64,000 nt of DNA, taken from Gammaproteobacteria bacterium (GTDB lineage: Bacteria; Pseudomonadota; Gammaproteobacteria; UBA4575). A program made the position numbers and the translations under genes. Every line of letters starts with the position of its first letter. Within the stretch, counting starts at the first letter, position 1. Below the pieces are notes generated by a model. That model was not told the origin of the DNA and did no database searches. It was given only the letters and a program-made list of their open reading frames with translations. Below are positions 12,689 to 23,137 of this stretch, piece after piece. Location of the stretch: positions 62,001 through 126,000 of the forward strand of contig WTFY01000010.1 of NCBI GenBank assembly GCA_011523795.1. Reading direction: 5' to 3'.

Positions 12689-13429
12689 ATGACCATACGA
12701 CCCTTACTGCTGATACAGATCCTGGTTCTGGGTACACTGCTGGCTGCCTGCAGTCCCCCTGAACAGGCCTCACACCGAATGCCTACTCCACAAACGGAGC
12801 CTGCTGCGGAACAGCCGCCCGAATCCAAAGACCGCGCACATTCCGCGGACGAGCGGGGCACCGGGTCCCGGCAACGTGCCGCGGCGCAGGAAAGCCAGGA
12901 ACCGGATGCATCCGGGCCAACACAGCCTGAAGGAGAAACAGCCGCTGCCCGAACCGAGGACGAGAGGGTTGCCATCCTGGAGCAGAAACTCGAGGAAGAC
13001 CTGAGGAGATACGACGAGCAGATTCATGAGGAGTTCGAAAAGGCACAGGCCGAAAGGCAGGCCCATGAACCGGCCACCGGGGACGGGCTGGACCCTGCAC
13101 CCGGTCTGGAAGAGGACGGGCCAGCGCAGGGCCCGAACAAGGATGCCGGACCCGTCGCAAAGGCCGAATCCCCGCAACCCGAGGCCGGTTCAGACCCAGA
13201 GAAACGGGAAGAACATGCACAGGACCGCCTGGGCAAGGGCTCGCACAGCGTGCCGCTCCCCGCAGACCTTCCCAGCGGGGATGACGACGACGTCGTGGCC
13301 CGGCAACTGAGAGAGGCTGCACTCAAGGAACAGGATCCCGTGCTGCGTGAAAAACTGTGGGACGAGTACCGCGCGTACAAGAAACAACAGGCAAGCGTGA
13401 ACACGCCTCCATCCGGTGCGGAATACTGA
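12689..13429 (+). CDS. Lipoprotein, acidic and disordered, first gene of the motor/VWA operon
   Basis: 246-aa predicted lipoprotein with signal peptide MTIRPLLLIQILVLGTLLAAC and lipobox LAAC, lipidated Cys21. The residue after Cys is Ser, so sorting to the outer membrane is expected by the E. coli +2 rule. The mature part is rich in Pro, Glu, Gln, Ala and lacks recognised domains. Residues about 88-130 form a charged helix (DERVAILEQKLEEDLRRYDE) and 215-235 another. ATG at 12689 was chosen because it directly precedes the signal peptide; the frame is open upstream without coding character. Only 3 nt separate it from the next lipoprotein. Function unknown. Confidence 0.78.
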   Translation: MTIRPLLLIQILVLGTLLAACSPPEQASHRMPTPQTEPAAEQPPESKDRAHSADERGTGSRQRAAAQESQEPDASGPTQPEGETAAARTEDERVAILEQKLEEDLRRYDEQIHEEFEKAQAERQAHEPATGDGLDPAPGLEEDGPAQGPNKDAGPVAKAESPQPEAGSDPEKREEHAQDRLGKGSHSVPLPADLPSGDDDDVVARQLREAALKEQDPVLREKLWDEYRAYKKQQASVNTPPSGAEY

Positions 13430-13432
13430 GCC

Positions 13433-14599
13433 ATGCCAAGACACTGCATCCCGTACCTGCTGATCTTCCTTTTCCTTCAGGGATGCGCCACCGACCCGCA
13501 CCGGGTACGGGACGGGGAGAAGATCGAAACCGAAAGCGTGCAACTGCAGGAAAGCCAGCTGCTGGACGTAGGCATCCTGCTGTTCGAACAGGGGGAGCAC
13601 ACGGAAAAGGAAAAGGAACAAAACATCCACGAGGATATCCGTGCGGCGGAGTCACGCTACATGGCCTACCACCTGAAAGAAACCCTGGAGCAGGTACACG
13701 GCTGGGGCGCGGTACGGGTCCTGCCTGCAGCCTCCCACATTGCCGACGTGACCGTACAGGGCACCCTCCTCGCCTCGGACGGCGAGAAGCTGGAAGTCCG
13801 GGCCCGTGTCTCGGACAGTACGGGCGCACTGTGGTTCGAGAAACTGTACCGGGCCGAAATCGACGAAACCACCTACCTGGATATCGAGCCCGGTGAAGAC
13901 GTGTACCAGCATGTCTACAACCGCATCGCCAACGACATGTCCCGGCACCGAAAGAAGCTGTCCGGCCGGGAACGGACCATGATCCGGAACACCTCGGAGA
14001 TGCGCTATGCAGCCGGGGTGTCACCCGACCCGTTCTCGGAATACCTGCAATGGAAGCCTGACGGACAGACAGAACTGCTCAGGCTGCCGGCCCGCGACGA
14101 CCCCATGCTGCTGCGTGTACGCAAGATCCGGGAGCGTGAGTTCCTGTTCATCGACACGATCAACGAGTACTACGCAAATTTCCATGCCCGGATGTACCGC
14201 CCGTATGAGAACTGGCGAAGGTATTCCCTCGTTGAAGTCCTGCAGAAACGCGCCATTGAACGCCGCGCAAACCGCACCAAGTTCGCCGCCGCCGCCATCA
14301 TGCTGGTAGGCCTGCTCAGGGACTACCCGGGCCTGCTCACCACCGGCGCCCTGCTGTACAAGGACGGGATGGACATTGCCCGGGAGGCGGAAATCCATGA
14401 TGCCGCGATTCGTGAACTGGGTGAGTCGCTCAAAACCGAAGTGGCCCCGATGGTGCTGGACATCGAGGGTCGCACGATCGAGATCACCGGCACCATCGAA
14501 CAGCAGTATGAAAAATGGCGCGCCCTGCTGCGCGAGATTCACGCGAACGAATCGGCTCCGGTCATGGATGACCGCGTGCCAGCCGGCACGAGCCTGTAA
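13433..14599 (+). CDS. Lipoprotein of unknown function
   Basis: 388-aa predicted lipoprotein: signal peptide MPRHCIPYLLIFLFLQGC with lipidated Cys18 followed by Ala. The mature region is mixed alpha/beta with the blocks LLDVGILLFEQG, VRVLPAASHIADVTVQGTLLASDG (a domain start seen in outer-membrane-associated lipoproteins) and a hydrophobic stretch at about 284-312 (TKFAAAAIMLVGLLRDYPG). No named domain recognised. Starts 3 nt after the previous stop and precedes the TPR gene by 57 nt; together they look like the outer-membrane end of the system. Function unknown. Confidence 0.78.
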   Translation: MPRHCIPYLLIFLFLQGCATDPHRVRDGEKIETESVQLQESQLLDVGILLFEQGEHTEKEKEQNIHEDIRAAESRYMAYHLKETLEQVHGWGAVRVLPAASHIADVTVQGTLLASDGEKLEVRARVSDSTGALWFEKLYRAEIDETTYLDIEPGEDVYQHVYNRIANDMSRHRKKLSGRERTMIRNTSEMRYAAGVSPDPFSEYLQWKPDGQTELLRLPARDDPMLLRVRKIREREFLFIDTINEYYANFHARMYRPYENWRRYSLVEVLQKRAIERRANRTKFAAAAIMLVGLLRDYPGLLTTGALLYKDGMDIAREAEIHDAAIRELGESLKTEVAPMVLDIEGRTIEITGTIEQQYEKWRALLREIHANESAPVMDDRVPAGTSL

Positions 14600-14656
14600 T
14601 TCCGGCAGGACTCTCCGGTCTTGGGCGATTCGTCACATCGCTTTACCTTGAGTACG

Positions 14657-16198
14657 ATGCAAAAAGACGGCTCCACACCTATCCGGGCAATCGACCCCTC
14701 TTCGCTTCACGGGCCATCCTCCCGGGTGGGCGCCCGGCGTTCTCCTGTCGCGGTGCGCATGCTTGTCGCCCTGGTGTTCATCGTGCTGGCCGGATGCGTA
14801 GTGGTCGTATTTCTGGTACTGCCGGAATACGTGAACGAGGCGCGTCAGCCGGACGAGACGGTCAGCAGCCCGGCGCGCACCGAAGACACGCCTCGTGAAA
14901 CCGCATCACCGCCTGCCAGGGCCGTGCCCGTCGTTCCGGATGCCCCTGCACAGTCCGGGCCCGCACAGCAAGCCATGAAACGCCAGGCTGAAGCCCTGCT
15001 GCTGGACATCATCGAAAAACAGGAATGGCTCCGGCAGCGAGGCGTCAGCCTCTGGGCAGCCGGCGAGTACGACCTAGCGGCATCGGCCGGCCAGGCAGGG
15101 GACGAGGCCTTTCGAACCCGGGCATTCTCCGAAGCCGTCCGCCATTACGAGCAGGCCGTGCACGCGTTGCATGAACTTGAAAGGCGGGCTGCACAGGTTC
15201 TCGGCGAACAGCTGGCGCTGGGAGAAGAGGCCCTTGAGCGCAACCAGGGTGAAACCGCGATGCGGCATTTTGAGCTGGCCCAGGCCATCGATCCGCGAAA
15301 TCCGCGGGTCATGAACGGGCTGAAGCGGGCGAACACGATCCATGCGCTGTTCTCACTGCTGGAAAAAGGCGGCAACCTTGAGGCCGCCGGGCGGTTCGAG
15401 GAGGCCGAACGGACCTACCGGCAAGCCGTGGAACTGGACCCGCTTGCAGCGGATGCCCGGACCGCCTTGCAGCGGGTGACTGCCCAGCTCACCGAGGAAC
15501 AGTTCAGAAAACTTGTCGCACAGGGGTATGCCTGGCTGGATGCGCGCCGGTTCCAGGATGCCCGCGAGGCATTCAGAAAAGCACACAAGCTGATGCCGGA
15601 TTCAAAGCAGCCTGTCAAGGGACTGGCCAGCGTGGACCAGGCTGTGCATGATGAAAAGGTCGAGTCCCTGAAAATCGAGGCGGAACATTTTGAACTGCAG
15701 CAGGAATGGGGCCTGGCCTTGCAAAGCTGGCAACAGCTCCTGGACCTTGAACCCGGTGCCGGTTATGCCGTGGAGGGCGCTGCGCGCGCCCGGCTGCGTG
15801 ATGCACTGCTGGAACGACTCGAAAATCACATCCGTGCCCCGCAGCGCCTGAGTTCAGCCGGTGTAGCGGCCGAGGCCCGCGCGCTGCTGGACGAGGTCGC
15901 GGCGGTGAAAGGCGGGCCCGGCAACCGGATCCTGGACAGGGCTGGCGTCCTTGAAGAAACCCTGATCCTTGCAAACCGGCCGGTCCCGATCACGCTGCAG
16001 TCTGACAACGAGACCGATGTGACCCTTCTCAGGGTGGGCAGGCTGGGGCGTTTCCAGCGCCATGAAATCCTGCTCAAGCCGGGCCGGTATACCCTCGTCG
16101 GGTCACGTCCGGGCTACCGCGACATCAGGAAAATTCTTGATGTGACCCTGGGCATGGAAACCGGCCGCCTCACGATTCGCTGCGAAGAGACGATATGA
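14657..16198 (+). CDS. Membrane-anchored TPR protein with PEGA-like C-terminus
   Basis: 513-aa protein: short cytoplasmic N-terminus, one membrane helix (about 34-55, RMLVALVFIVLAGCVVVVFL), a Pro/Ala linker, then TPR-type helix pairs (about 105-390, e.g. AAGRFEEAERTYRQAVELDP and DARRFQDAREAFRKAHKLMP). A C-terminal beta domain (about 420-513, HEILLKPGRYTLVGSRPGYR) resembles a PEGA domain. The helix contains LAGC but continues hydrophobic past the Cys, so I read it as a membrane anchor and not a lipobox. ATG at 14657 is preferred to an upstream TTG (14621). Probably a periplasmic scaffold; inferred. Confidence 0.8.
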   Translation: MQKDGSTPIRAIDPSSLHGPSSRVGARRSPVAVRMLVALVFIVLAGCVVVVFLVLPEYVNEARQPDETVSSPARTEDTPRETASPPARAVPVVPDAPAQSGPAQQAMKRQAEALLLDIIEKQEWLRQRGVSLWAAGEYDLAASAGQAGDEAFRTRAFSEAVRHYEQAVHALHELERRAAQVLGEQLALGEEALERNQGETAMRHFELAQAIDPRNPRVMNGLKRANTIHALFSLLEKGGNLEAAGRFEEAERTYRQAVELDPLAADARTALQRVTAQLTEEQFRKLVAQGYAWLDARRFQDAREAFRKAHKLMPDSKQPVKGLASVDQAVHDEKVESLKIEAEHFELQQEWGLALQSWQQLLDLEPGAGYAVEGAARARLRDALLERLENHIRAPQRLSSAGVAAEARALLDEVAAVKGGPGNRILDRAGVLEETLILANRPVPITLQSDNETDVTLLRVGRLGRFQRHEILLKPGRYTLVGSRPGYRDIRKILDVTLGMETGRLTIRCEETI

Positions 16199-16213
16199 CC
16201 CGGCAGGCGCACC

Positions 16214-18625
16214 GTGTCGGCTAGGCCCGTCCGGCAGGTCTGTATCGCCGACGTGCGAGGACCCCGGTTTTACACGCACACGGACTTTCCGCTGGCCATC
16301 GGCATCGGCCCGGACTCGGGCGTGTGTATCGGGGACCCCGAGCCTTCCAGTATTGTCGCCTTCCTGGTCTTCCTGGCAGACCGGGTCCGTGTCGAACTGC
16401 AGGACCGGGGCGGTTTGATCCGGGTGAACGGGCAGCTTCCCGCGCAGCGCCAGGCACTTGAGCACGACGATCGCCTGCAGGTCGGGGATTCCACCTTCCA
16501 CGTCGAGCATATCGGTGACACATTTTCCCTGTCCCTGCATGAAGACCCTTCCCTGGCCCCGTCGCAGCCGCGCCTGGCGGGGCACGGAGAACTGATCGAG
16601 CCGGTTGCCCCGGCAACCGAAGCCCGGAAGCAGCGAGGGAAAAAGCGTCCGGGCGTACTGGGCTGGGCGGCAGCCCTCATCTTTTCGGCGCTGGCCCTGG
16701 TTTTGCTCCACGTGTTCACGGCCAAGAGCCTGCTGATCGAAATCTATCCCGAGCCCGAGCAGATGACCCTGCACGGCAAGATATGGCCGCTCAGGATCCA
16801 GGGGCGCTACCTGGTGCAGCCGGGAGAATACTCGCTTGAAGTGGAAAAGGCCGGCTACCGGCCACTGAAACGCAAGATCCAGGTCACCCGCCAGGCGTCC
16901 CAGGCCCTGGCATTCACCCTGATCAAGCAACCGGGCTACCTGAACCTCACGAGCCTGCCCGAACAGGGAGTCTCCATCACGATCAACCACAAGGCATACG
17001 GGACCACGCCCCTGGAAAACCTGGAGCTGCCTGCAGGCACCTACGTGCTGCAGGCGAGCGCGGACCGGTACCAGCCCTACGCCACCCAGCTGGTCATCGA
17101 AGGCAAGCAGGTGTCGCAGGATCTTCACATCCAGCTGCAGCCTGGCTGGTCGGCCGTTTCCATCGACTCCAGGCCCCAGGCGGCGGAAGTCTGGCTGAAT
17201 GGCTCGCTGGAAGGCACCACACCGCTGAAACGGGACCTCCTGGCAGGGTTGTACAGCCTGGAACTGCGCCATCCCGACTACCTGCCCTACAGGACAGACT
17301 TCCTGGTAAATGCCAACGAACCGCTGGTGCTGCCCACGGCAGAACTTTTCGGCAGCAAGAGCCAGCTGGTCATCACCAGCATCCCTCCGCAGGCCACGGT
17401 ATATGCCGCCGGCAAGGAGCTGGGCCGCACCCCGCTGACAGCAGGGCTCCATCCCAACACCGAGCACAGCATCACGCTTGCCAAACCCGGATACCGCAGC
17501 AGCCAGCAGGCCGTCCTGATGAAGCCAGGCGAAAAACAGACGCTCACGATCCATCTCGAGGCGATCCTCGGAACCGTGATCGTGCATGCCGATCCCGAAG
17601 GTTCGGAAGTGTTCGTGCAGGACCGGCTTGCCGGCCAGGGTACCGTGAAACTGACACTGCCCAGCACCCCCCAACGCCTGGAGGTCCGAAAACCGGGATA
17701 CGAAATCCACCGGCAGCTGATTACACCGGCCCCGGGCGCACCGCAGGTCATCCATGTCCATCTCCACCGCAAGGCGCGGCCTGCCGTCCCCCGGGCTCCG
17801 GAACGGGTCCGTACCAGCCAGGCACAGGAGCTGGTGCTGATCCGGGGCGGAACCTTCGCCATGGGGGCACCACGCCGGGAGCAGGGCCGACGGACCAACG
17901 AGACGCAGCACACGGTGATACTGCAAAAACCGTTCTACGTGTCCACGACCGAGGTCACCAATGCCCGGTTTGCAGCGTTCATGCCCTCCCATCATTCCGG
18001 GGCGTACCGGGGGCACGACCTGTCCGCCCCGGATCTTCCGGTCGCGAATGTCCGCTGGGAAGATGCCGCACGCTACTGCAACTGGCTGAGTGAGCGTGAA
18101 GGGCTGGAGAGCGTGTACCAGGAACGAAACGGCACGTGGGTAGCCAAAAACCCCCTCCCTTCCGGGTACCGCCTGCCCACGGAAAGCGAGTGGGAATGGG
18201 TCGCTCGCGTGCGCCAGGACGGTACGCTGAAGAAATATGCCTGGGACAGCGGATTCCCTCCCGTCGAGCGCTTTGGAAACTATGCCGACCGGTCTGCGGC
18301 AGGCATCCTCTCCGCCACGATCGGCGATTATGACGACGGATTCGCAGCCGCCTCACCGGTGGGCAGCTTCGAGGCCAACTCCCTTGGCATTTTCGACCTG
18401 GACGGCAACGTGGCAGAGTGGTGCCACGACTACCACAGCGTCTATCCGGCCCTGAGCGAGGAATCGTACGTGGACCCGACCGGCCCCGAATCGGGAAGCA
18501 AGCACGTCATCCGCGGGGCATCGTGGATGCGCAGCACCCTCGCCAACACTCGACTCAGCTACCGGGATCAGGATAATACTCCACGTATGGACGTAGGTTT
18601 TCGTATTGCCCGGTACCCGGACTGA
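16214..18625 (+). CDS. FHA-like / PEGA-repeat / formylglycine-enzyme-like membrane protein
   Basis: 803 aa. Residues 1-110 resemble a divergent FHA domain (VELQDRGGLIRVNG, then LQVGDSTF). One membrane helix at about 149-170 follows, then about five PEGA repeats (172-530; units such as GTTPLENLELPAGTYVLQ, GTTPLKRDLLAGLYSLEL, GRTPLTAGL). The last part is a SUMF1/FGE-like domain (536-803; LVLIRGGTFAMGAP, YRLPTESEWEWVAR, DLDGNVAEWCHDY, VIRGASWMRST, DVGFRIARYPD). True FGE needs two cysteines just after the RGGSW motif. Here that stretch is RGASWMRSTLANTRLSYRD without Cys, so sulfatase activation is unlikely and a binding role more likely. GTG start, 15 nt after the TPR gene. Confidence 0.85.
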   Translation: MSARPVRQVCIADVRGPRFYTHTDFPLAIGIGPDSGVCIGDPEPSSIVAFLVFLADRVRVELQDRGGLIRVNGQLPAQRQALEHDDRLQVGDSTFHVEHIGDTFSLSLHEDPSLAPSQPRLAGHGELIEPVAPATEARKQRGKKRPGVLGWAAALIFSALALVLLHVFTAKSLLIEIYPEPEQMTLHGKIWPLRIQGRYLVQPGEYSLEVEKAGYRPLKRKIQVTRQASQALAFTLIKQPGYLNLTSLPEQGVSITINHKAYGTTPLENLELPAGTYVLQASADRYQPYATQLVIEGKQVSQDLHIQLQPGWSAVSIDSRPQAAEVWLNGSLEGTTPLKRDLLAGLYSLELRHPDYLPYRTDFLVNANEPLVLPTAELFGSKSQLVITSIPPQATVYAAGKELGRTPLTAGLHPNTEHSITLAKPGYRSSQQAVLMKPGEKQTLTIHLEAILGTVIVHADPEGSEVFVQDRLAGQGTVKLTLPSTPQRLEVRKPGYEIHRQLITPAPGAPQVIHVHLHRKARPAVPRAPERVRTSQAQELVLIRGGTFAMGAPRREQGRRTNETQHTVILQKPFYVSTTEVTNARFAAFMPSHHSGAYRGHDLSAPDLPVANVRWEDAARYCNWLSEREGLESVYQERNGTWVAKNPLPSGYRLPTESEWEWVARVRQDGTLKKYAWDSGFPPVERFGNYADRSAAGILSATIGDYDDGFAAASPVGSFEANSLGIFDLDGNVAEWCHDYHSVYPALSEESYVDPTGPESGSKHVIRGASWMRSTLANTRLSYRDQDNTPRMDVGFRIARYPD

Positions 18626-18629
18626 ATCC

Positions 18630-18869
18630 GTGAGAATTCAAACCGCGCTGCTGGCCATGATGCTCGGATTCGTTCCGGGAGGAGTACCGGTCCATGCACA
18701 AGAACCCGCCGACGAGGCGCAACACACCGAATCCCGGGCGGAAACGACCGATGGCAGCAAGACCCGTGAAGGAAAGCCTGGCCGCCACCCGGTCAGGACC
18801 CTTGAGGAATTCATCCCCAGTGAGGAAATTTCCGCTGACAAGCCCGTCAGCTTCCCGGCGGATATCTGA
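18630..18869 (+). CDS. Small secreted protein with C-terminal SFPADI
   Basis: 79-aa protein beginning with GTG at 18630. Signal peptide about 1-26 (MRIQTALLAMMLGFVPGG, cleavage near VHA-QE). The mature part of about 53 residues is hydrophilic and ends FIPSEEISADKPVSFPADI. It starts 4 nt after the FGE-like gene and ends 6 nt before the ExbB-like gene, so it is part of the same transcript. The compact, ordered-looking C-terminus suggests a docking peptide. No family recognised; function unknown. The tight spacing and signal peptide are the main support. Confidence 0.68.
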   Translation: MRIQTALLAMMLGFVPGGVPVHAQEPADEAQHTESRAETTDGSKTREGKPGRHPVRTLEEFIPSEEISADKPVSFPADI

Positions 18870-18875
18870 CTGCCC

Positions 18876-19673
18876 ATGAAGAAACCGTTTTCCTCCGAAC
18901 TCGTATACCAGCTTTTCAGCCTGCTGGTCATCATCATCATCGTGCACGCCGTGTACGTGACCGTCATCCGGCCCACTGCGCAGGTCGAACTCGAACTGCA
19001 GGCCGAGCAGATCAACCTGGACAGGAACTTCGTGCCGAAACGCTCGGTGTACGTGCTGGTTCGCGATTACGAGCAGGAGGCCTGTTTCATCCTGATGCTG
19101 TGGGCCCTGGTCATCATGGGCCACAAGGCTGCCCGGCTGTTCAGGGAACGGGGCATGCTGGAACTGGACATCCTGCACGCGAAGGAAGGCATCAAGTTCC
19201 TGCCGCAGGACATGCACAGGCTCTCCAGGCAGATCCAGTCCCTGCCTTCCGACCAGCAGGACTACCTGCTTCCCCGGGCGCTGCTGACGGCCCTGCACCG
19301 CTTCGGTTCCACGCAGAACGTCCAGGACGTTTCCTCCGCGACCGGCACCGTGTGCGAGTCGGAGTCCGAGCGCCTGGATTCCGAGCTGTCCATCATCCGC
19401 TACACCACCTGGGCCATTCCCTCGATCGGCTTCCTGGGAACCGTGCGGGGTATCGGGGATGCCCTGGGCCAGGCACACAAGGCCGTGGAGGGCGATATCG
19501 CGGGAGTTACGGAAAGCCTTGGCGTGGCGTTCAATTCCACCCTGATTGCCCTGTGCATCAGCATCGTGCTGATGTTCGTGGTTCACCAGCTGCAGCGGCT
19601 GCAGGAAAGGCTGATCCTGGATACGCAAAACTACTGCAACGACCACCTGATTCGCCACCTGCAGGCCAAGTGA
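18876..19673 (+). CDS. MotA/TolQ/ExbB family ion channel protein
   Basis: 265-aa inner-membrane protein of the proton-channel family that powers ExbB-ExbD, TolQ-TolR and flagellar stators. Helices at about 10-31, 67-85, 176-193 and 214-238. The conserved core is clear: AIPSIGFLGTVRGIGDAL (Thr189) and SLGVAFNSTLIALCISIVLM (Thr222), corresponding to the pore helices of TolQ/ExbB. The cytoplasmic loop of about 90 residues lies between helices 2 and 3, as in the family. No ExbD/TolR gene is adjacent; the two VWA proteins downstream carry the matching helix instead. Confidence 0.9.
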   Translation: MKKPFSSELVYQLFSLLVIIIIVHAVYVTVIRPTAQVELELQAEQINLDRNFVPKRSVYVLVRDYEQEACFILMLWALVIMGHKAARLFRERGMLELDILHAKEGIKFLPQDMHRLSRQIQSLPSDQQDYLLPRALLTALHRFGSTQNVQDVSSATGTVCESESERLDSELSIIRYTTWAIPSIGFLGTVRGIGDALGQAHKAVEGDIAGVTESLGVAFNSTLIALCISIVLMFVVHQLQRLQERLILDTQNYCNDHLIRHLQAK

Positions 19674-19686
19674 AGGGTCCCGCGCG

Positions 19687-21054
19687 ATGTCCATGCTAGT
19701 CATTGACCTGTACGACAGCGGCATCCTGGTCAGTGACGGGGACCGCGTGCTTGCAGACAGCACCAGCTGTGCGCTCATCGAACCCGGCCAGCCCATCCAA
19801 ACGGGTCACAGGGCCGCGCAGCAGGCCTGCTTTCGTCCCCAAGACATCTGCACCCAATTCTGGAGCCGGCTGCCGGACCGCAGTGCAACACGCCACGAGG
19901 TCCCCCATGCGGAAATCGCGCTGCACCACCTGCAGTCCGTCTGGGAACGGCTCGACCGGCCGGATCATGCGGCGATCCTGGTGGTTTCCGGCATGCTGGA
20001 CAGGCAAGACCTGGGACTGGTGCTGGGCATCTGCGAAAAGCTTTCCATCCCGGTACGGGGCATCGTCAGCCGTGCCGCGCTGGCCCTGCCCGGCCCCGCC
20101 CCGGTACGTACGCTGGCCTGGCTGGACGTGCTGCAGACCCATGCAATCCTGTCCGAGCTTCAGCAGGATCACAAGGGGGTGTCCGCCCTCGCTCCCGTCA
20201 CACTCATCCCCCAGGGCCTGCCGGCCCTGAACCACATCCTGGCCAAGCGGATCACCAGGCTGTTCATCGCCAGGACCCGCTTTGACCCCATGCAAAAGCC
20301 CGACGACGAACGGCAGTTTCTCGAGAAACTGCCGCGCTGGCTGGCCACCCTGGAGCAAGAGGAATCCGTTGTGTGCAGGTTGCAGGGCACCGGACAGGCC
20401 CTTCGAATCCGGCTGGACAGGCATGAGGTGCTGGACATGAACCGGCCCGTGTTCGAGGCCATCGCCCTGCGCCTGGCCGGCCTGTTCCAGGACCGGGACG
20501 CGGTCGCAGTCGTCTGCGCCCCCTCCTGCAGGCAGGTGTTCGGCCTGGAAGGATTCCTGAAGGGCCTGCCGGGTTGTGCGGTTCTCGGCACCGAACCGCT
20601 GCAGCTGGCCCGGCAGGCCCTGCGGTACCGGGAACAGATCACTGCCCGGCATGCCGCGGTGCACTATACAACCTCCCTGGAGTGGGACCGGGACACGTCC
20701 CCGCTGACCCTGGACATTCATCCGGGCACGCTCGCCGAACTGAATAACCGCCCCACGCACCTGCTGATTGGCGACCAGGCCTGGCCGCTCGACCGCGAGG
20801 TGTGCCTGTCAGCACGAAACGGCACGCATGGGCTGGACCTGGACCCTGCCTGCGGAGAAGGCGGCCTGTGCCGGATTGCAAGCTCAGGCTGGCTGATCGA
20901 GGTACGGGCCCTGCACGGCCATGCCGTCAGGCTGAACGGAAACCCCCTGACCGCACCCCGGTCCGTGCAGCCGGGAGATGCCCTGGACATCGAGGGACAC
21001 CCGGATGCCTTGCGGTTCATCCGGGTTTGCGAACATGAAACGCCGGACGTTTAA
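19687..21054 (+). CDS. Operon protein with actin-fold-like N-terminus and FHA-like C-terminus
   Basis: 455-aa soluble protein without signal peptide or membrane helix. The start MLVIDLYDSGILVSDGDRVL resembles the first phosphate-binding hairpin of the actin/Hsp70 superfamily. AILVVSGMLDRQDLGLVLG and GIVSRAALAL follow the usual layout of that fold, but key motifs were not found with confidence. The C-terminal 100 residues (CLSARNGTHGLDLDPA, WLIEVRALHGHAVRLNG, SVQPGDALDIEG) resemble an FHA domain. Its end overlaps the first VWA gene by 20 nt. Probably a cytoplasmic regulator or assembly ATPase of the machine; this is inference. Confidence 0.72.
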   Translation: MSMLVIDLYDSGILVSDGDRVLADSTSCALIEPGQPIQTGHRAAQQACFRPQDICTQFWSRLPDRSATRHEVPHAEIALHHLQSVWERLDRPDHAAILVVSGMLDRQDLGLVLGICEKLSIPVRGIVSRAALALPGPAPVRTLAWLDVLQTHAILSELQQDHKGVSALAPVTLIPQGLPALNHILAKRITRLFIARTRFDPMQKPDDERQFLEKLPRWLATLEQEESVVCRLQGTGQALRIRLDRHEVLDMNRPVFEAIALRLAGLFQDRDAVAVVCAPSCRQVFGLEGFLKGLPGCAVLGTEPLQLARQALRYREQITARHAAVHYTTSLEWDRDTSPLTLDIHPGTLAELNNRPTHLLIGDQAWPLDREVCLSARNGTHGLDLDPACGEGGLCRIASSGWLIEVRALHGHAVRLNGNPLTAPRSVQPGDALDIEGHPDALRFIRVCEHETPDV

Positions 21055-22126
21055 CGCATTCAGCCTCTCGTTCCTGGACGTGATGTTCTGCGGGTTCGGG
21101 GCCGTCATCCTGTTTTTCATGATCATCAACGCCGACACCCAGGCCCGCAGGCAGGACCTGCATGACACAAGTCGCAACGAGGCGGACCGCCTGCAGACGG
21201 AAGTGCTGGAGGCCGAGCGGCATGCGGCGCAGACCAGGAACACGCTGCAGGACCTGGACGACACGCTGGTACAGACCCGTGGACGGACAGTCCAGGTCAT
21301 CGAAACCATCGACACGCGGAATGTCCAGCTTGCACGACTGCAGGAAGAAACCCTGGCCAGGCTGCAGCATATCGAGGCCCTCAAGGCCGACCTGAAATCA
21401 CTGGAACAGGATTTTCGCCGCCTGGAAGCCGGTGCAAAGCCGTCGCCGGACCAAGGAGACCGCCTGCGCCGGTTCACCGGGCAGGGACAGCGGCAGTACC
21501 TGAGCGGCCTCAGAATGGGAGGCGAGCGGATCCTGATCCTGGTGGACAGTTCCGCGAGCATGCTGGCGGACCGCATCATCAACGTGCTGCGGTTCAGAAA
21601 CCTGCCCCCCGGGGAACGGGTGCGTGCGGCCAAGTGGCAGCAGGTCCTGCACACGGTCGACTGGATCACCACCCGCATCCCGACTGAAAGCAGCTTCCAG
21701 CTCTACGCGTTCAACGAAACCAGTGCACCCGTGTACGCGCTCCCCGACAGCGCATGGCTCGACGGGGGCAATGTACGGCACCTGGATGCCGCGGTGGATC
21801 GCCTGTACGGGATCGCGCCCGAAAAGGGCACGAGCCTTTACCGGGCCTTCGAATCGATCGGTCAGCTTTCCCCGCCCCCGGATACCGTCTACCTGCTCAC
21901 GGACGGCCTGCCGACGCAGGGCAAATCCAGGCCTCTCGGAAGCAAGGTCTCCGCAAAGGCCCGCAAAAAACTGTTCCGGGCCGCACTGGAGATGCTGCCC
22001 GGGGACATCCCCGTCAACATCATCCTGTTTAACATGGAAGGGGATCCGGATGCCTCCAGTGAATACTGGAAACTGGCACGCAGTACCCGGGGAAGTTTTT
22101 TCAGCCCTTCCAGGGACTGGCCCTGA
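21035..22126 (+). CDS. VWA-domain protein 1 with ExbD/TolR-like membrane helix
   Basis: 363 aa. A short basic N-terminus (MKRRTFNAF) is followed by a membrane helix at 8-32, SLSFLDVMFCGFGAVIL, with Asp15 inside it. A coiled coil (about 38-132) and a von Willebrand A domain (about 164-363) with MIDAS DSSAS (171-175) and LTDGLPTQG complete it. Topology predicts the VWA domain in the periplasm. The Asp sits as in ExbD/TolR (FIDVM, LLDVL), where it carries the proton. ATG at 21035 gives exactly the N-terminus seen in the next gene; upstream residues in this frame belong to the overlapping gene. Followed by VWA protein 2 after 3 nt. Confidence 0.87.
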   Translation: MKRRTFNAFSLSFLDVMFCGFGAVILFFMIINADTQARRQDLHDTSRNEADRLQTEVLEAERHAAQTRNTLQDLDDTLVQTRGRTVQVIETIDTRNVQLARLQEETLARLQHIEALKADLKSLEQDFRRLEAGAKPSPDQGDRLRRFTGQGQRQYLSGLRMGGERILILVDSSASMLADRIINVLRFRNLPPGERVRAAKWQQVLHTVDWITTRIPTESSFQLYAFNETSAPVYALPDSAWLDGGNVRHLDAAVDRLYGIAPEKGTSLYRAFESIGQLSPPPDTVYLLTDGLPTQGKSRPLGSKVSAKARKKLFRAALEMLPGDIPVNIILFNMEGDPDASSEYWKLARSTRGSFFSPSRDWP

Positions 22127-22129
22127 GCC

Positions 22130-23137
22130 ATGAAGCCGCGCAGAAGCATCGAGATTTTCAGCCTGTCCTTCCTGGACTGTGTCTGCTGCGGTTTCGGCGC
22201 ACTGATCCTGTTGCTGGTACTATCCAAGACGGCGGAACCGGTCATCTTCGACCAGTACGGCGAGGACCTGGACCGGACGATCGCAGCATTGCAGCAGCAA
22301 CTGCACGAGCTGCGTGGTGAAAGCCACGTGCTCAACCGCGAACTGGTGAGCAAAAAACAGCAGCTCGCCGAGGAAGAGAAAAGGATCGCACGCCTGCAGG
22401 CCGACCTGTCTGCCATACGGGGCAGGTTCTCCGCCTCCAGCGAAGACGCATCCGTACAGAACAGGATCGAAGACCAGTTGCTGCAGGCACGCCAGATGCT
22501 GACCGAAGCGATGCGCCGGCTGCAGCAGCAGGATCCTCCCCGAACCCTGCCAGAGGAAGACACCATCGCAGGCATACCGGTCGACAGCGAATACGTCATC
22601 TTCATTATCGACACTTCCGGCAGCATGCTGAATCACGGCTGGACCTCGGTCCAGCAGAAGCTGACCGAGGCGCTGGATGCGTACCCGAAAGTCAAGGGCA
22701 TGCAGGTCATGAATGACATGGGCGAATACATGTTCAGCCAGTATGCCGGCAGGTGGATTCCCGACACGCCTGCACGCCGCCAGGCGGTACTCAGGCGCCT
22801 GCGCGACTGGCAGCCATTCAGCAACAGCAGCCCGGTCGAGGGCATCACCACGGCCATCCGCACATTCCAGGCGCAGGACCGGCGCATCAGCCTGTACGTG
22901 TTCGGCGACGAGTTCACCGGACCTTCCATCGAGTCCGTGTTGCGCGAAGTGAGCACGATCAACCGCAAGGACCTGCAGGGAAACCGGAGGGTGCGCATCC
23001 ATGCCGTAGGCTTCCCGATCCAGTTTTCCCGCCCGGAATCCGAGCAGGTCAGCGGGGTCCGCTTCGCTACCCTGATGCGCGCCCTGTGCGAGCAGAACGG
23101 CGGAACGTTCATCGGCCTCGACTCCCACATACCCTGA
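22130..23137 (+). CDS. VWA-domain protein 2 with ExbD/TolR-like membrane helix
   Basis: 335 aa with the same plan as the preceding gene: basic N-terminus, helix at 10-32 with SLSFLDCVCCGFGALIL and Asp16, long coiled coil (about 48-133), then a VWA domain with perfect MIDAS DTSGS (161-165) starting near residue 153 (SEYVIFIIDTSGSM). The shared FSLSFLD..CGFGA..L helix indicates gene duplication, while the VWA domains differ strongly, so a heterodimer in the channel is plausible. Last gene of the operon; no clear terminator found in the 207 nt that follow. Confidence 0.87.
   Translation: MKPRRSIEIFSLSFLDCVCCGFGALILLLVLSKTAEPVIFDQYGEDLDRTIAALQQQLHELRGESHVLNRELVSKKQQLAEEEKRIARLQADLSAIRGRFSASSEDASVQNRIEDQLLQARQMLTEAMRRLQQQDPPRTLPEEDTIAGIPVDSEYVIFIIDTSGSMLNHGWTSVQQKLTEALDAYPKVKGMQVMNDMGEYMFSQYAGRWIPDTPARRQAVLRRLRDWQPFSNSSPVEGITTAIRTFQAQDRRISLYVFGDEFTGPSIESVLREVSTINRKDLQGNRRVRIHAVGFPIQFSRPESEQVSGVRFATLMRALCEQNGGTFIGLDSHIP

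Follow-up and report, generated by a model that had tools for sequence, protein, structure and literature searches.

In the known 5:2 motors, a pentamer surrounds a dimeric axle that carries a conserved membrane Asp (PMC9389320). The main text of a 2025 study (Mol Biol Evol 2025 msaf138, PMC12204202) describes vWA proteins that occur in pairs and have a transpore helix bearing an Asp (TPH-vWA), encoded beside tolQ-like genes without tolR or exbD; its AlphaFold3 models set the vWA helix Asp inside a ring of Thr, and the vWA pair is predicted there to be the dimeric partner of TolQ-like pentamers. Among characterised systems, the nearest to the locus described here is the Agl-Glt gliding core of Myxococcus, of which a core cluster of unknown function is present in Gammaproteobacteria (PMC3169522). 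Our locus is a nine-gene operon on the forward strand, at 12689-23137 of a 64,000-nucleotide stretch (hereafter the window; contig WTFY01000010.1 of assembly GCA_011523795.1, positions 62,001 to 126,000) from a gammaproteobacterium. We think it probable, at roughly 0.7, that the operon encodes a trans-envelope ion-driven machine, in which a channel pentamer is served by an axle of two proteins with VWA domains, VWA1 and VWA2.

The features from which this motor core would be built are:

18876-19673, + strand: gene 6, MotA/TolQ/ExbB-type channel, 265 amino acids
19440-19442, + strand: channel Thr189 codon (GFLGT), at the site of the first TolQ pore Thr, invariant in 87/87
19539-19541, + strand: channel Thr222 codon (AFNST), at the site of the second TolQ pore Thr, invariant in 87/87
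21035-22126, + strand: gene 8, VWA1, 363 amino acids, its start overlapping gene 7 by 20 nucleotides
21059-21133, + strand: N-terminal membrane helix of VWA1, with the Asp15 codon at 21077-21079, invariant in 72/72
22130-23137, + strand: gene 9, VWA2, 335 amino acids, laid out as VWA1
22157-22228, + strand: N-terminal membrane helix of VWA2, with the Asp16 codon at 22175-22177, invariant in 72/72

Thr189 and Thr222 were assigned to the TolQ/ExbB pore positions by our own reading of the TolQ sequence, and by analogy with TolQ both would face the channel lumen. Each VWA protein consists of a short basic N-terminus, a hydrophobic helix, a coiled coil and a VWA domain, and the two helices have the motif SF(L/I)DxxxCGFGA in common. 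Their VWA_2 Pfam scores lie under the cut-off of 27 (17.9 and 22.5 bits); the DxSxS metal-site motifs are complete in both proteins and invariant in relatives, as is a further metal-site Asp, and in VWA2 all of D161, S163, S165, S233 and D260 are invariant. VWA1 and VWA2 are an unlike pair, about 24-30% identical across the aligned part, and both are present in complete loci.

A Pfam search found no ExbD, TolR or MotB gene and no PF02472 (ExbD/TolR) match in the operon; the PF02472 matches of the window's genome lie outside it, on contigs C12 and C22. Among 229 Gammaproteobacteria, VWA matches are present in 16 genomes, and the set of genomes with a close channel (E below 1e-70) is identical, with no case of a channel without VWA or of VWA without a channel. 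Because the operon lacks ExbD, TolR and MotB, the helix Asp is invariant and co-occurrence with the channel is perfect, the VWA proteins appear, on sequence grounds, to be the best candidates for the channel's motor partner. The first-pass annotation of this DNA had proposed just this partnership, and had named homologues without the channel as a finding that would speak against it; none came to light, since all 16 genomes have both. Profile searches of the PDB yielded nothing useful for the channel, for VWA2 or for lipoprotein 2.

We envisage that five copies of the gene 6 channel would enclose an axle formed by a single VWA1 helix and a single VWA2 helix (5:2, as 5:1:1), with the invariant VWA Asp residues placed in the ring of channel Thr, where they would bind ions and release them again. 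Pentamer and axle may rotate against each other, as they do in ExbBD and MotAB. The axle would extend into the periplasm as a coiled-coil stalk tipped by two metal-binding VWA heads, and these heads would act on a periplasmic framework of PEGA/FGE and TPR proteins that may reach lipoprotein 2, the likely outer-membrane ring component. A Hsp70-like/FHA protein, the product of gene 7, would provide a cytoplasmic assembly or regulatory platform.

The likeness to TPH-vWA is close: two unlike vWA genes adjoining a tolQ-like gene, no tolR or exbD, a helix Asp and the pore Thr are all found here. This likeness is to the description in PMC12204202, which used an Idiomarina family. The main text of that paper covers the channel and vWA genes and does not mention the remaining operon genes; neighbouring genes may be drawn in its cluster figure 4c. 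Beyond this paper, we found nothing in the open-licence literature that joins PEGA, vWA, FHA, FGE and ExbB, and a description may exist elsewhere; nor did that literature yield experimental work on any relative of the operon. The first-pass annotation knew of no named system with this gene set; the motor idea had been predicted in PMC12204202, and for the remaining genes we found no description, the comparison with that paper being with its main text. On the same footing, the motor core is already published as a prediction, and the full parts list and the folds appear to be new.

Agl-Glt likewise combines one channel with two unlike axle proteins (AglR, AglQ and AglS), an FHA membrane protein (GltG) and TPR proteins. 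However, AglQ and AglS belong to the ExbD/TolR family (PF02472) and lack VWA domains, GltG has a TonB-like part, and Agl-Glt has no PEGA, FGE-like or Hsp70-like gene. The two PF02472 axle proteins and the FHA-TonB GltG that characterise Agl-Glt (PMC3169522) are both missing from the operon.

Other channel genes were seen in the course of the analysis. In the window's genome, at G000:C22:306234-307491 (L108, L109, L111), a further channel gene precedes two ExbD-type genes, in the AglRQS layout, and a fourth, weak MotA_ExbB match (a frame of 331 amino acids) lies at G000:C18:354294-354464, within the contig that holds the window. A separate type of cluster, whose distant channel is of the same kind and about 30% identical, is present at L025 8078-17952 (G053), L155 (G107) and L026 (G050). 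Its genes encode an FHA protein, the channel, a PP2C phosphatase, trypsin-like proteins, a Ser/Thr kinase and just one VWA protein, whose membrane helix carries SALDLFASALGAFIL; the cluster has the appearance of a VWA-motor relative under control by phosphorylation.

The remaining genes of the operon are:

12689-13429, + strand: gene 1, lipoprotein 1, 246 amino acids, lipobox LAAC
13433-14599, + strand: gene 2, lipoprotein 2, 388 amino acids, lipobox LQGC
14657-16198, + strand: gene 3, membrane TPR protein, 513 amino acids, one N-terminal transmembrane segment and TPR repeats
16214-18625, + strand: gene 4, FHA-transmembrane-PEGA(x5)-FGE-like protein, 803 amino acids
18630-18869, + strand: gene 5, small secreted protein, 79 amino acids, GTG start, signal peptide, conserved C-terminal tail
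19687-21054, + strand: gene 7, soluble Hsp70/actin-fold protein with a C-terminal FHA-like domain, 455 amino acids

The nine genes are tightly packed, with successive gaps of 3, 57, 15, 4, 6, 13, -20 and 3 nucleotides, spaced as first described; coordinates, Pfam, AlphaFold2 and family profiles bear out both this arrangement and the protein types then named. Pfam matches above cut-off are MotA_ExbB (53.9 bits, cut-off 22.9), PEGA (166.5 bits, 5 copies), FGE-sulfatase (152.2 bits) and TPR_2 (56.5 bits). Consensus promoters and terminators within the operon showed no excess over shuffled sequence. As far as the translations indicate, the neighbouring genes are ordinary: upstream a Cu-transporting ATPase, DinB, SodC and a desaturase-like gene, and downstream, on the opposite strand, glmS, glmU and atp genes.

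The N-terminal domain of lipoprotein 2 (about residues 33-181, followed by long helices; predicted structure with pLDDT 83.6) resembles the folds of FlgT, PelC, CsgG, PqiC, TolB-N and TraT (Z about 8-12). Under the Lol rule, an Asp directly after the lipidated Cys bears on sorting, and its absence is expected for outer-membrane lipoproteins; this +2 residue is Asp in 0/64 relatives scored. Many of the proteins with the like fold form or join outer-membrane rings, and in the model lipoprotein 2 is probably part of such a ring. This lends partial support to the earlier suggestion of a scaffold terminating at the outer membrane, the PelC/FlgT/CsgG/TolB-N-like fold and the +2 residue being what speaks for it. 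Lipoprotein 1, with a lipobox in 47/74 relatives, has an acidic low-complexity linker and then a conserved C-terminal motif (VARQLREAA..DP.LREKLWDEYR.YK). In both this protein (window 13330-13429) and the small secreted protein (18810-18869), short C-terminal motifs are conserved and the rest mostly is not; the two motifs look like docking peptides.

Downstream of its N-terminal FHA domain, which family profiles find in part of the family and which is missing in many relatives, the gene 4 protein has one transmembrane segment, five PEGA repeats and an FGE-like domain. No Cys or His is invariant among 29 relatives, so neither the catalytic Cys pair nor the His metal ligands of FGE or EgtB-type enzymes are conserved. 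We therefore reject FGE enzyme activity, and by this sequence criterion the domain is most likely structural. The TPR repeats of gene 3 are presumably periplasmic.

The gene 7 protein gave no Pfam match for the window copy. Its AlphaFold2 model (pLDDT 93.2) has a Hsp70/actin-type fold, and the N-terminal 320 residues match DnaK 2v7y with Z 25.6, 3.4 Å and 13% identity. Taking the DnaK phosphate motifs for comparison, we found that the glycine-rich phosphate motifs of an active Hsp70-type ATPase are missing from the family consensus; the product is for this reason probably a scaffold. In the window copy the nucleotide motifs are degenerate. Family profiles identify the C-terminal part as an FHA domain, which some relatives (L048, L091) have intact and which is degenerate in the window copy. 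Control by Ser/Thr phosphorylation as a general rule was rejected, since the window's gene 7 FHA domain is degenerate, the gene 4 FHA domain is often missing, and the window's genome has no Ser/Thr kinase (Pkinase) above cut-off.

A search of genomes for the same gene set had been suggested, and the set does recur. A scan for the channel gene, with one genome per species, returned at least 591 relatives, of which the 80 best were examined. These come from Gammaproteobacteria, Desulfobacterales and one metagenome-assembled genome labelled Acidobacteria; the gammaproteobacterial ones include many marine metagenome-assembled genomes, Microbulbifer, Exilibacterium, Aestuariicella, Pseudomaricurvus, Marinibactrum, Porticoccus and Woeseiaceae. 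Within the window's own family, clear channel relatives are present in 13/19 genomes, most of which have the nine-gene order whole. The order of the nine genes is identical in nearly all complete loci examined, in Gammaproteobacteria (Microbulbifer, Aestuariicella and Exilibacterium among them) and Desulfobacterales alike, and the median spacing of neighbouring genes across relatives is -11 to 93 nucleotides. Among the best 80 of the at least 591 loci, VWA1 and VWA2 are present in 75, the PEGA/FGE gene in 77 and gene 7 in 74, the missing matches being mostly at contig ends; lipoprotein 1 relatives are in 63/80 named loci, the remainder mostly clipped by contig ends. Order and spacing kept over dozens of loci from distant genomes are more than chance.

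Divergent lineages (g2 genomes, G136, G265 of another class) have neither gene 7 nor the gene for the small secreted protein but keep the other seven in order; lipoprotein 1, lipoprotein 2, TPR, PEGA/FGE, channel, VWA1 and VWA2 therefore form the core. A survey of 299 Pseudomonadota gave 15 positives, 13 of them from one family of another class; a 60-genome sample included three members of this family that have both VWA genes, and lipoprotein 2 was present in 3/3. Many relatives have an extra TPR gene upstream and two extra lipoprotein genes downstream (40, 47 and 45 loci). The two conserved lipoprotein genes after VWA2 (L084 14398-15865, L060 14992-15651 and about 45 other loci) have no Pfam match, and the next gene often has the look of an M48-type metallopeptidase. 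Some of the closest relatives (L027-L031, L049, L088, L096) have bin names that look like sponge metagenomes; at a guess from the bin names, the window perhaps comes from a sponge-associated bacterium.

Pairwise divergence of seven gene products is correlated (r 0.77-0.94, 51 loci), a pattern in the sequences consistent with inheritance as a unit. Some points weigh against the motor reading or loosen its support. Plain vertical descent would yield the same correlation of divergence. In G229 the channel gene is separate, on another contig than the rest, and in G108 it is placed after VWA2. When the VWA N-termini were aligned with ExbD/TolR by hhalign, the match lacked significance and control helices scored at least as well. 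Because the ExbD profile test stayed within controls, we claim a likeness in working parts instead of common descent: the VWA helices seem to resemble ExbD in the Asp and its position.

Going beyond the motor itself, we tentatively suggest, at somewhat short of even odds, that the seven-gene core with its accessories is a distinct, undescribed trans-envelope nanomachine that is neither Ton, Tol, Agl-Glt, T9SS (type IX secretion system) nor flagellar, in which a MotA-like pentamer would turn a heterodimeric VWA axle and thereby work a PEGA/TPR/lipoprotein-ring conduit, with a dead Hsp70-like/FHA platform, for secretion, surface assembly or movement. Two of the alternatives, secretion and tethering, depart from our main reading in purpose and not in motor.

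A system for secretion or surface assembly of the T9SS or curli/Pel kind, in which the motor exports or moves a surface protein or polysaccharide via the lipoprotein 2 ring, is somewhat unlikely. The fold of lipoprotein 2 is that of the ring lipoproteins PelC, CsgG, TraT and FlgT, the FGE-like domain is of the GldK/GldJ kind, and a cytoplasmic actin-fold and FHA platform may recall secretion platforms in general; the GldLM motor and GldK ring of T9SS and gliding similarly join an ion-driven inner-membrane motor and a long periplasmic shaft to an FGE-like (GldK-type) partner. In T9SS, however, that partner is a lipoprotein, whereas here the FGE-like domain is on an inner-membrane PEGA protein. 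The GldK match (TIGR03525, 103.7 bits) is far below the cut-off of 350, FGE-like domains are common, and neither GldL nor GldM was matched. Moreover, neither the operon nor the genes conserved beside it yielded a beta-barrel, secretin, pilin, active ATPase, glycosyltransferase or obvious cargo.

That the motor serves as a Tol-Pal-like tether, pulling lipoprotein 2 to hold or invaginate the outer membrane with no cargo moved or exported, seems unlikely. It is favoured by the TolQ/ExbB-type channel, by the TolB N-terminal-type fold of lipoprotein 2, and by the chromosomal position of the operon, adjoining glmS, glmU and atp genes, with no operon matches among 72,556 plasmids, a result on which we also rejected a mobile element. 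But such a tether would double an existing job, as other contigs of the genome carry genes of the TolQ/ExbB and TolR/ExbD types. The operon has no TolA/TonB, TolR/ExbD, Pal or OmpA-type peptidoglycan-binding domain, its axle bears VWA heads, and the channel scores 26.8 bits against TIGR02796, where the cut-off is 221. It is also absent from most Gammaproteobacteria, being present in 16/229.

A passive structural or signalling complex, in which the MotA-like protein just positions the VWA proteins without ion-driven motion, strikes us as quite unlikely. The lack of statistical support for ExbD homology of the VWA helices would fit it, as would the degenerate nucleotide motifs and FHA residues of the window's gene 7, in a genome with no Ser/Thr kinase above cut-off. 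Against this, the pore Thr pair and both helix Asp residues stay invariant across widely diverged relatives, a constancy that a merely passive anchor would not require, and the AlphaFold3 models presented in the main text of PMC12204202 place the Asp within the ring of Thr. A Zorya-type (ZorAB) anti-phage system is highly improbable and was rejected: the MotA-like channel matches ZorA weakly (16.2 bits), but the operon lacks a ZorB-type peptidoglycan-binding axle, ZorC, ZorD, ZorE and a nuclease, its gene order and co-inheritance are kept over families, and PADLOC gave no other match of weight.

The proposed machine may serve export or assembly, tethering or movement. If the motor reading is true, a whole ion-driven envelope machine, for which a parts list is now defined, is present in hundreds of bacterial species, some of them from genera that can be cultured, such as Microbulbifer. 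The vWA-motor prediction of 2025 would take shape as a specific system of nine genes, with candidate partners named for both membranes, and the role of 5:2 motors with VWA heads would become answerable in a culturable host.

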